Origin: Sphingobacterium tabacisoli
GTDB taxonomy: Bacteria > Bacteroidota > Bacteroidia > Sphingobacteriales > Sphingobacteriaceae
DNA length: 64,000 bases
Reading direction: 5' to 3'
Assembly: GCF_017908035.1 (NCBI RefSeq)
Contig: NZ_JAEQMU010000004.1
Coordinates: 186,001-250,000 of the forward strand
The translations under genes and the position numbers were made by a program. This document shows, piece after piece, positions 39,847-51,484 of the stretch. Below the pieces are notes generated by a model. The model was not told where the DNA came from, searched no databases, and saw only the letters and a list, made by a program, of their open reading frames with translations. Position 1 is the first letter of the stretch. Each line of letters opens with the position of its first letter.

Positions 39847-40263
39847 ATGAAACGATTATTACTAGCATTTGCGATAGCAGGGGCATCCCTCGTTACGCTT
39901 AATTCTTGTACAAAAGAATACATTACAAATAATTTTGTTCCTAGCCAGACTATGGTATACGAAAGATTTTCTAAAGACTGGACTGGATCGAAAAACAGTA
40001 TTTATGTTGATCTAAACGTCAAAGAATTGACCAAATACTATATGGACCAAGGGATCGTAACACTTGCTATGAGTCAGGATGGAGAAAAAACGTTTCAGGC
40101 TATTCCTGGAACTATAGACGGTATATCCTATTCATTTGACTATCAACTCGGCAGTATCCGTGTTTATATAGAAGATCCAATAATGGACAACGGTGTGACA
40201 ATCAATCCCCCTGATAAGGTAATCTTCAAAGTTTCATTAACAGATGCTGATTGGGTAGAATAA
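39847..40263 (+). CDS. Small lipoprotein of unknown function
   Basis: A 138-residue lipoprotein with signal MKRLLLAFAIAGASLVTLNS and lipidated Cys21. The remainder is about 115 residues of mixed beta-structure (SIYVDLNVKELTKYYMDQG, GISYSFDYQLGSIRVYIED). No family is recognised. It stands alone with its own terminator and borders the repeat-array region on the right. Confidence 0.7.
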   Translation: MKRLLLAFAIAGASLVTLNSCTKEYITNNFVPSQTMVYERFSKDWTGSKNSIYVDLNVKELTKYYMDQGIVTLAMSQDGEKTFQAIPGTIDGISYSFDYQLGSIRVYIEDPIMDNGVTINPPDKVIFKVSLTDADWVE

Positions 40264-40288
40264 GACTTTAAGGAGGCTATCATTTTAC

Positions 40289-40330
40289 AATGCGCCCAAA
40301 AAGTTAAACACTTTCTGGGCGCATTTTTAT
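40289..40330 (+). terminator. Terminator after the small lipoprotein gene
   Basis: A 10-bp stem (AATGCGCCCA at 40289-40298, TGGGCGCATT at 40316-40325) is followed by T residues. Confidence 0.8.
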
Positions 40331-40573
40331 GTTGAATACTCCCAGTCCTCTACCTTTTCTAAATAGACTTCCTATCGCTACTTTTTGATAAAACAATAAC
40401 TAAAAATAAGACACAAAAGGTTTGTTTTTCGGCCAAAATCAAGGGGGTACAAAAAAACATTTTGCCGTTTTCCAAACCTTTCTTACGCCATTTTAGAAGC
40501 AAAAAATAGCCCAAAAACAGCCTTATAGACATCAAAAACCAACTTTTAGAACGTCAGAAAATCGCAAAAAACC
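40331..40573. other. A-rich noncoding leader before the 21-bp array
   Basis: About 240 bases contain no usable frame. The + strand carries repeated A tracts spaced between short C- or G-bearing words (for example GGCCAAAATCAAGGGGGTAC near 40433, then AAAAAAACATTTTGCC, TAGCCCAAAAACAGCC, ATCAAAAACCAAC). Such spaced A tracts could bend DNA. It runs directly into the palindrome that opens the array. Confidence 0.4.
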
Positions 40574-40942
40574 GACTCCCGCACGCTAGCGTGCGGAGTC
40601 TAGGCGCTAGCTATCCGAGTTGACAACCTAGCACGCAGCGATTAGGCGCTAGCGTATACGATTTAGATGCTAGCACCTAGCTTCTAATCGCTCCCGATTA
40701 ACATCGGGAAGCTAACTCCCAATAAGCAAACGCTAGCATGCATTGTCCAGATCCTAGCCCGTCTATGCTATATGCTTGCTATCAGCCTCTCCGCGTTAGC
40801 GATTTGTATCCGCGAGCTAGCGTATCTCCTCTGCTCCCTAGCTTGCATAGTCTGTGTGCTAGCGTACCATGTCTACACCCTAGCGTCTATCTTCCCAACG
40901 CTAATGCATGAAATAGAATCGCTACCGTTCTTTCCACATAAG
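40574..40942. repeat. Phased 21-bp repeat array with CTAGC core
   Basis: From 40586 to about 40942 the word CTAGC recurs with a fixed 21-base step. It is exact at 40586, 40607, 40628, 40649, 40670, 40733, 40754, 40817, 40838, 40859 and 40880. One-mismatch forms fill 40712, 40775, 40796 and 40922, and weaker forms fill 40691 and 40901. Aligned units also share TC at offsets 13-14 (about 11 of 15) and G before the core (11 of 15), giving CTAGC-N8-TC-N5-G; the rest differs in every unit. The first core sits inside a palindrome (40574-40600). No cas-like or other system gene adjoins it. Confidence 0.9.
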
Positions 40943-41047
40943 TTATCGAAAATAGACTATCCACCACAAGCATTTGGTGTTCCTATGTAAATTAACACTG
41001 AGCTTATAACTCAAAAAAATAGGGTAAAAATTGTCCTAAGCAGATGC

Positions 41048-41137
41048 TTAGGAGTTTAACAACTCTCTTACGTGCTGTAATGCCACCTCTCCAGGGTTCC
41101 TCCTACTCACCATTTTAACGATCTCCAAAATACGCTG
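41048..41137 (-). pseudogene. Relic of the 3' end of recN
   Basis: Read on the minus strand, 29 codons plus a stop translate to a segment ending SRRNPGEVALQHVRELLNS. It matches the last 29 residues of the intact RecN in this window (SGTNPGEAAIQHARELLNA) at 17 identical positions, with mostly conservative changes elsewhere. A hairpin CCTAAGC/GCTTAGG lies at 41035-41052 over the stop. No upstream part of recN is present, so it is a truncated, diverged copy next to the array. Confidence 0.75.
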
Positions 41138-41215
41138 ACGCTAGTTAAAACTGTATATTGCTGTATTTTTTCGTCAATCAAGTAGCCCCCAGGATAACCA
41201 GATAGATCAATAGAC

Positions 41216-49806: not shown

Positions 49807-51468
49807 TTATGCGTTCAATAATTCTCGCGCATGCTGAATCGCTGCCTCTCCAGGATTCGTCCCGCTCAGCATTTGTGCGATTTCCATAACACGCTCATCA
49901 TTATTCAACAATTGTATATTAGACTGGGTCTTATCCCCGCGATCTTCTTTATAAACTTTAAAGTGTGCTTTTCCTTTTGAAGCGATTTGCGGTAAATGCG
50001 AGATGGCTAATACCTGCATATGATCTGCCAACCTATCCATTACCTCTCCTACGCGCAATGCTACCTCACCAGATATACCTGTATCTATCTCGTCAAATAT
50101 AATCGTCGGTAGGGCGGATGATTTCGCAACCAAAGATTTAATCGCCAACATAACCCGCGACAGCTCTCCTCCAGACGCTACCTTATGAATAGCTTGCATA
50201 GCCTGTCCTTTATTTGCGGAAAAAAGAAATTGTATAACATCTAGTCCCTTTACACTCATCCGATCACCATCTAACAATTGTAAATCAATCTTCAATTGCG
50301 CATTAGGCATCCCTACCGCACTCAGTGTTTGCTGTACCTCCATCTCCACCCTCGGAATAATAGATTTCCGCCTTTCATGGATATCGCGCCCTAACTGTAG
50401 TACCTTTTGCATTTGCTCTTTCTGCTTATGGGCAAGTTCTTCTACAAGCTGATCTTGGTTTAAAACCATCTGAAGCTTAGTCTCTAATTGTTGGCGGATC
50501 TGGACCAGTTCATTCTCCGAATCTACACGGTGCTTTTTCTGTAGAACATAAATCTCGCTTAAGCGATTATTCACTTCGTCAAGACGTTGTTCATCCAAAT
50601 TAACCGCATTCTCCTGTGTCACCAACTCCTCGGCAATATCCTTGAGTTCAATCAAGGCACTCTGCATTCGCTCTGTCAGCCCCTCAACACCACTAAGGTA
50701 GCGAGTCACATGTTGCACCTGCCCTACACTTTCCTTCAAAAGTGAAATCACATTAGCCTCACCCTCTGACAAAGAATAGCTTGCGGCATTTAGCCCTCGT
50801 TTTATTTCTTCAGCATGTTCCAACTGCTGCTGCTCATCTTCCAATCCCTTGACCTCATCAAGCTGTACATTCACACGCTCCAATTCGTCAAATAAAAACT
50901 GATTATAATCGGCCTCCGCATTCGCACTGTCCAGCTCTTCCCGTACCGTCTTGAGCTGTCTGTCCAAATTCCGTAACTCCTTCAACTCTTCTTTAAACGA
51001 GACCAACCGCTCTTCATTTTCAGCCAGGCTATCCAGAACAAATAATTGAAAATCTTCCGTATTGATCTGCAAAGTGGCATGCTGAGAGTGGATATCAATC
51101 AATTTCTCCCCTAGTCCCTTCAATGTAGCCAGTGTTACGGGCGAATCATTAACAAATGCGCGTGACTTGCCATCTAATAGGATTTCCCTGCGAATAATGG
51201 TTTCGGCTTCGTAGTCTAAGTCTTCTTCTTCAAAGAAGGGTTCTAAGCCATAGGCGGAAATATTAAAATATCCTTCTATAACACATTTTCGCTCTTCACT
51301 AAAAAAAGGACGCCCTTCTACTCTACTCCCTAAAATCAACCCCAAGGCTCCCATCAATATAGATTTACCAGCTCCTGTCTCGCCTGTTATGATATTCAGT
51401 CCTTTGTCGAAAGAAATATCTAAACTATCGATCAGCGCATAGTTTTTTATCAGTAATCGTACTAGCAT
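49807..51468 (-). CDS. recN: DNA repair protein RecN
   Basis: A 553-residue SMC-like ATPase for double-strand break repair. Walker A is in NIITGETGAGKSILMGALGLI (about 26-46); long coiled coils fill about 150-370; the ABC signature is VASGGELSRVMLAIKSL and Walker B is TIIFDEIDTGISGEVA, followed by VLAISHLPQIASKGKAHFKV. The start is the ATG at 51466-51468 (MLVRLLIKNYAL), three codons inside the longest frame. A diverged copy of its final 29 codons lies at 41048-41137. It is 16 bp downstream of the DUF4835 gene. Confidence 0.96.
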   Translation of the reverse strand: MLVRLLIKNYALIDSLDISFDKGLNIITGETGAGKSILMGALGLILGSRVEGRPFFSEERKCVIEGYFNISAYGLEPFFEEEDLDYEAETIIRREILLDGKSRAFVNDSPVTLATLKGLGEKLIDIHSQHATLQINTEDFQLFVLDSLAENEERLVSFKEELKELRNLDRQLKTVREELDSANAEADYNQFLFDELERVNVQLDEVKGLEDEQQQLEHAEEIKRGLNAASYSLSEGEANVISLLKESVGQVQHVTRYLSGVEGLTERMQSALIELKDIAEELVTQENAVNLDEQRLDEVNNRLSEIYVLQKKHRVDSENELVQIRQQLETKLQMVLNQDQLVEELAHKQKEQMQKVLQLGRDIHERRKSIIPRVEMEVQQTLSAVGMPNAQLKIDLQLLDGDRMSVKGLDVIQFLFSANKGQAMQAIHKVASGGELSRVMLAIKSLVAKSSALPTIIFDEIDTGISGEVALRVGEVMDRLADHMQVLAISHLPQIASKGKAHFKVYKEDRGDKTQSNIQLLNNDERVMEIAQMLSGTNPGEAAIQHARELLNA

Positions 51469-51484
51469 AAAATTCAATCAGATT

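Follow-up and report, generated by a model that had tools for sequence, protein, structure and literature searches.

The 21-bp array at positions 40586-40942 of the window, i.e., of the whole 64-kb stretch of DNA analysed here, is one part of a larger element that additionally comprises an inverted repeat (IR) and an AT-rich linker, neither of which was seen in the first-pass annotation. In the genus, such elements are usually found in the order AraC-type regulator, array, IR, promoter and small fibronectin-III-like (Fn3) gene. The array is most likely a helically phased protein-binding platform and operator, and there is about an even chance that it constitutes the distal part of a composite cis-regulatory element made up of a 21-bp dyad lattice, a phased linker and an IR abutting a promoter.

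The phasing of CTAGC claimed in the first-pass annotation was fully borne out. From 40586 onwards the core recurs in 21-bp steps at 17 positions without a single indel, 11 of these being exact and the remaining six reading CTCCC, CTAAC, CTTGC, TTAGC, CTAAT and CTACC; the 17 units, which are assigned to neither strand, have the approximate consensus CTAGCGT-n-CAGA-g-TCT-nn-ACG. The top lags in the autocorrelation are 42, 84, 21, 105 and 63 (0.44-0.50, the next value being 0.34), and the information at period 21 amounts to 8.68 per column, which is not reached by any of 2000 first-order Markov shuffles scanned over periods 10-39 (maximum 3.87). The pattern CTAGC-N16-CTAGC has 10 matches in the window on both strands taken together, as against 0.05 expected, and every one of them lies within the array. 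A 7-bp sub-period is weak, with an autocorrelation of only 0.31-0.32 at lags 7 and 14, and the information of 11.5 per column at period 7 is obtained from columns three times as deep. One dyad is centred on the CTAG core and another lies half a period from it (p=0.002); the TC island that had been described alongside the core is real but only partial, and forms part of this second dyad. The contrast earlier drawn with CRISPR also holds, in that the constant part is the 5-bp core rather than a segment exceeding about 20 bp. Decay of a microsatellite was considered as a source of the array and rejected, as period 21 dominates and relatives display sequence turnover at a constant period. Tandem Repeats Finder did not detect the window array.

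The IR of the window spans 60 bp (40419-40478, no strand assigned) and consists of two 17-bp arms, GGTTTGTTTTTCGGCCA and TTGCCGTTTTCCAAACC, around a G-run loop, with flanking AAAA/TTT lengthening it to 40415-40482. It is followed by the AT-rich linker of 107 bp (40479-40585, likewise without strand), which carries AT-tracts about 10.5 bp apart and is nearly constant in length between loci. On the other side of the IR, at 40382-40414 on the minus strand, lies the site which at Fn3-bearing loci is occupied by a promoter-like box (CATCTTTG), putatively a promoter of the Bacteroidota type; in the window this site is degenerate and no Fn3 match comes after it. Further out, a lipoprotein-like ORF of 138 aa (39847-40263, plus strand), which has no Pfam match, reads towards the element and marks the orthologous locus in other genomes.

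The 60-bp sequence that forms the IR is shared as a flank by the window array, another array of its genome (G000:C13) and the orthologous array of G009. A search with this flank gave matches in eight of the 93 genus genomes; that in G080 does not fall in the IR part, and most of the remaining ones are followed by a CTAG array. The C13 array additionally has an 84-bp tandem repeat about 2 kb away (L004:1804-2366), with about 84-91% agreement between its copies. A covariance model built on 18 IR sites found the IR in 28 of the 93 genomes, with quite different arm sequences, and a second model found it in 36 of 399 family genomes, of which 34 belong to the genus itself and two to one other genus. 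Across 40 IR sites the arms vary in sequence and keep their complementarity: 88.1% of cells pair, compared with 69.6% after shuffling, and the covariation score, computed with a structure drawn by hand from those same sequences, is 0.467, compared with 0.157 after shuffling and at most 0.14 when the structure is slid. IR copies with GGGGTAA-type arms at L403, L406, L407 and L408 come without an array, have mutually similar flanks and perhaps represent a separate family.

The spacing within the element is nearly fixed. The distance from the IR to the first CTAG pair is 106-107 bp in nine of 14 loci and 127 bp (106+21) in two, with the pair absent or distant in the remaining three. A linker alignment of 47 rows (the genus array set described below minus three orthologs) has a shift of 0 in 36 rows and of -1 in eight; AT-tracts lie near -63, -54, -42 and -32, with weaker ones near -21 and -11, and positions -41 and -33 reach 98% identity.

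At many of the newly found IRs the array keeps the 21-bp period with a different core (CTAG, CCCTTAAGGG, AGCT-type, TGCATGCA and others), and several genus arrays have higher-order periods of 42 or 63 bp. The genus array set comprises 50 rows, after removal of seven weak loci and the subsequent addition of 21 of 33 later loci, the other 12 being copies or loci with a weak array or none (including L403 and L406-L408); it contains one locus twice (L356=L378) and several orthologs, and at L338 the wrong flank was scanned. Since 45 of the 50 rows lie above the periodicity cut of 0.38, the set is selected for period but not for dyads, and 37 of the 45 periodic arrays have dyad symmetry at p<0.05 relative to permutation of the column order. 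Two dyads 10.5 bp apart are present in 42 of the 45, although the second is not independent evidence because one dyad together with a 21-bp period forces it. Of the conserved core and phase that had been anticipated in relatives, the phase is indeed retained, whereas the core at many loci is an unrelated sequence set at the same period.

The CTAG core is not special. The CTAG pattern occurs in 21 of the 399 family genomes and a reversed control with GATC cores in 27, and the pattern count alone therefore says nothing on CTAG. Many of the control matches at 21 bp come from two genera (g1 and g31), and 21-bp arrays with other palindromic cores are therefore common in the family. Collection scans for four CTAGC cores gave at least 119 stretches in one and 105 in another, and most of those among the matches listed resembled coding repeats or plain heptamer repeats. 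Heptanucleotide repeats of the type (CTAGCNN)n share with the window array the CTAGC core and the weak 7-bp sub-period; however, those of other bacteria are, among the matches listed, plain 7-mers, whereas the window array has period 21 and CTAG is missing from other arrays of its class. More homogeneous 21-bp arrays were observed in Pedobacter and related genomes (L119, L134, L305-L312 and L347), several of them with the consensus TGCAGGTGCTAG and a species-specific remainder; no IR was seen with these, the scanned loci contained neither an Fn3 nor an AraC match, and the arrays are excluded from every count. A 210-aa Fn3 gene of G006 is followed downstream, at L061:4855-5619, by yet another kind of 21-bp array, with CTAGCCGTAAAGGGTTCTTGA on one strand, in which an open frame would give heptapeptide repeats.

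The type of IR and the type of array co-vary between loci (Mantel r=0.25, p=0.0005, for 38 loci with orthologs included and kinship ignored), which is what cassettes with private recognition should show, although common descent contributes as well. The IR arms do not match the units of their own arrays (own z 0.19, p=0.076, 38 loci). A motif common to IR and array was accordingly rejected, leaving one protein that reads one motif unsupported, and the dissimilarity of arms and units makes it likely that the array is bound by another protein or in another mode.

The usual home of the element in the genus is best seen at 14 distinct loci that combine an AraC-type gene, the array region, the IR, a 202-aa ORF with an Fn3-like C-terminus and a 227-aa ORF; at most of the members of this set displayed, a box resembling CATCTTTG lies about 20 bp past the IR arm. 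Pfam matches to HTH_18 and HTH_AraC confirm the AraC HTH domains of the regulators, and the 202-aa and 227-aa ORFs have no Pfam match of their own, the Fn3 assignment being based on a distant homologue (L061) and on profile matches of the C-terminal part to solved Fn3 domains. PADLOC returned no match, and thus no known anti-phage defence system, for five cassette proteins. Fn3 genes are present in 42 of the 93 genus genomes, with up to 14 matches per genome. Among the best 50 Fn3 matches in the genus, 47 have an IR 45-140 bp upstream, and at one of the three exceptions (G006, L060) an IR is present by eye. A broader count used the best 94 listed Fn3 places (one with a stop being omitted) and 120 listed IR places, which omit opposite-strand doubles and the other genus: 53 of the 94 have an upstream IR, all at 45-140 bp and 51 on the same strand, and 67 of the 120 IRs have none of these 94 best matches within 300 bp downstream. 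By genome, 33 contain both IR and Fn3 gene, one the IR only, nine the Fn3 gene only and 50 neither (Fisher p=8e-16, kinship ignored).

Further, AraC paralogs adjoin the more distant Fn3 paralogs, and the AraC-type gene A4 is found in 30 of the 93 genomes at E up to 1e-40. The gaps between divergent AraC and Fn3 genes contain a period-21 signal with z>=5 in 12 of 20 cases, two of which (L442 and L457) peak at a lag that is none of 21, 42 and 63; for five of the 20 the scan covered just 100-122 bp, the finder having placed the IR wrongly. Different cores are found at different loci of a single genome, G086. The genome from which the window derives has an Fn3 cassette of its own (G000:C18), with the same IR type as the window and a degenerate array (0.33-0.36, the background maximum being 0.36), and its orthologs in G068, G097 and G107 have array scores of 0.40-0.48. 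The earlier remark that no known system lies nearby is correct for the window locus but not for the element at large, whose cassette has a representative at C18.

Beyond the genus, Fn3 profile matches were obtained in 19 of 247 class genomes and six of 257 phylum genomes, the own genome being counted in both. A lag-21 array scoring at least 0.40 lies upstream of 19 of the 27 class-level Fn3 loci, i.e., 16 of 22 outside the own genome and three of five within it; among five further loci, three of which, from two genomes, are outside the class, four score at least 0.40 and the fifth 0.398. For the other families combined, a 21-bp array is present upstream in 20 of the 27 Fn3 loci examined, as compared with none of 217 control windows, all of which were drawn from the window, the genus loci and one G194 locus rather than from distant genomes. 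The downstream sides of the distant Fn3 loci, which served as a further control, yielded one genuine array in 27 (at L469; the downstream match at L477 overlaps the upstream array of that locus). In this distant set L458 is omitted for lying at a contig end, the five loci from one genus (g4) do not count as independent, the best lag is a different one at L470, L475 and L479, and L489, among the further loci, is a short locus. Dyad symmetry at p<0.05 is present in 14 of the 20 arrays upstream of distant Fn3 genes and in 11 of the 17 outside the own genome. No comparable IR was evident at the Fn3 loci of other families. Two of the distant arrays have a LuxR-like gene upstream, two distant loci of the own genome have an HTH_17-like one, and L484 has a member of PF10609 (ParA/NUBPL; Mrp/NUBPL-type); elsewhere the upstream gene varies.

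The copy in the window is an orphan lacking the Fn3 gene, with no Fn3, 227-aa or AraC match anywhere in the 64 kb. Its locus, as marked by the 138-aa ORF, is shared with G009, G057, G097 and G107. Identity of the IR is 59/60 in G009, 58/60 in G057, 48/60 in G097 and just 47/60 in G107, although a neighbouring protein of the last is 95% identical; the IR is thus conserved in G009 and G057, whereas in G097 and G107 an IR of another type has perhaps taken its place. By eye, unit identity and unit order are preserved in the orthologous arrays, apart from substitutions and the loss of some units. Relative to G009 and G057, the window array is 76-78% identical (core columns 84-86%, spacer columns 74-76%), against 85/113 (75%) for neighbouring intergenic DNA and 44/50 for the four-fold sites of the neighbouring gene, from which the array thus differs in diverging more. 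Cores likewise exceed spacers in the comparison with G097 (94% vs 86%), and the two are about equal in that with G107 (79% and 80%).

From these observations we infer a binding protein, control of the Fn3 genes and a role for the orphan as follows. A dimeric DNA-binding protein would occupy every second helical turn, such that the bound units face the same way and the bound dimers could form a cooperative filament along the array. The phased and probably bent linker of nearly fixed length would carry the effect of this filament to the IR, whose two 17-bp half-sites, beside the -33 region, would be bound by the AraC-type regulator that switches the Fn3 promoter. The ordered filament on one face of the helix that had been suggested for the array alone fits the 21-bp period kept with unrelated cores, the dyads and the phased linker, the binding itself being putative. 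The window copy would have lost, or never had, its Fn3 gene, and may persist most likely as a spare binding platform, whether as a decoy or as a structural site, for the factors acting on the Fn3 cassette at C18. More broadly, we tentatively propose that Bacteroidota may have undescribed, widespread regulator-array-Fn3 cassettes, each paralog being equipped with a helically phased lattice of its own, with the period, the dyads and, in the genus, the linker length being conserved and the recognised sequence being replaced repeatedly. A cassette and its orphans would then form a private recognition group, comparable to the types of plasmid centromeres, and the window array would be an orphan of the CTAG group.

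Operators of AraC and RhaS contain two 17-bp half-sites with about 16-17 bp between them. Like those of AraC, RhaS and RhaR, the IR has two inverted 17-bp half-sites beside a promoter-like box at the Fn3 loci, an AraC-family gene is adjacent at many loci (absent at the window locus), and the arms co-vary as the sites of one protein would, the binding of a regulator being putative. However, the arms here are about 26 bp apart, and the array units do not resemble them. We know of no AraC-type operator that is accompanied, at a nearly constant distance, by a dyadic array of many units.

Alternatively, array and IR together could be a selfish, satellite-like repeat that spreads with or without the Fn3 gene, changes its unit number by slippage and leaves orphans as decaying remains, a reading we regard as unlikely though deserving of real weight. 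It would account for five paralogous copies in G006, with about 82-91% identity and differing unit numbers, for near-identical copies with and without the Fn3 gene in G106 (L387 and L388), and for the above-noted divergence of the window array from G009 and G057, which is about that of intergenic DNA and exceeds that of four-fold sites. However, such a repeat would not be expected to hold its period constant and mostly retain its dyads despite unrelated sequence, to keep a nearly fixed linker length, to precede one and the same gene family across several taxonomic families and in genomes of other classes, or to have an IR as nearly identical as that in G009 and G057.

An improbable alternative is that the array serves as a centromere- or nucleoid-type site, i.e., a lattice bound by a partition protein or by one that organises DNA, the link to the Fn3 gene being secondary. 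The helically phased 21-bp dyads, the phased AT-tracts and the presence of copies at several chromosomal places are all compatible with this; the placement upstream of Fn3 genes is not readily explained by it, and the differing cores within G086 ill suit one genome-wide binding protein. No partition gene was recognised among the neighbours listed, the PF10609 gene at L484 being the sole ParA-superfamily neighbour seen. The plasmid centromeres bound by ParR (parC) and SopB (sopC) are tandem repeats near whole helical turns, lie upstream of an operon promoter, are diverse and are bound by polymerising dimers. The arrays described here share with them the tandem arrangement, a unit length close to whole helical turns, the position upstream of a promoter and the diversity between systems, but occur on large genome contigs and in many copies per genome, and the downstream genes encode an Fn3-like and an unknown protein.

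We assign little probability to a transcribed array of RNA hairpins (or cruciforms), which the palindromic consensus of the units and the stem-like covariation of the IR might suggest. Pairing within units is no better than between units (mean z -0.39, 45 arrays), which favours palindromic protein sites over RNA hairpins; further, the hairpin TCCCGATTAACATCGGGA of the window is not retained in orthologs, the IR lies upstream of the promoter-like box at Fn3 loci, and Rfam gave no match at E up to 1 over 40200-41200. That the variable spacers are themselves the information, as in a guide or tag array, had been offered as the other reading of the array and is very improbable: a constant core, variable spacers and a conserved, leader-like flank at a nearly fixed distance do recall CRISPR, but the constant part of the window array is just 5 bp, the spacers stay in order between species with no gain of spacers seen, and they diverge faster than the cores in three of four comparisons. 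The notion that the 21 bp represent seven codons of a heptad-repeat peptide is barely credible: ORFs of about 90-118 aa run through the 21-bp arrays at L054, L056, L057, L058, L060, L062, L343, L346 and L347 and a frame is stop-free over 12 units in 21 of 46 genus arrays, but column shuffles predict 20.5 such arrays and hence no excess, the open frame is not the same one between arrays, and the window array has at least four stops in each frame over its 357 bp.

We regard this class of element as new because the criteria for CRISPR, RNA-hairpin arrays and coding repeats do not describe it and because nothing matching was found in the titles and abstract openings of the literature on comparable elements; by analogy, its action would still probably be like that of operator or centromere arrays. 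A DNA element whose geometry, but not sequence, is kept over wide distances would be an unusual conserved non-coding feature, invisible to ordinary alignment. It makes the co-divergence of a binding lattice and its protein a testable question, and additionally provides a handle on a widespread family of small Fn3-like genes for which library scans found no function.

As for the surroundings of the window array, a 3' remnant of recN (41 residues, 49% identity, with a stop) lies beside it at 41051-41173, and an intact recN is located at 49810-51477 on the minus strand. In G009 the end of recN directly adjoins the array. The ORFs between the remnant and the intact gene include one that is arylsulfotransferase-like and, by eye, two that are SusD-/SusC-like. 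Taken together, the remnant, the intact copy, the arrangement in G009 and the intervening ORFs make an insertion at the 3' end of recN likely.
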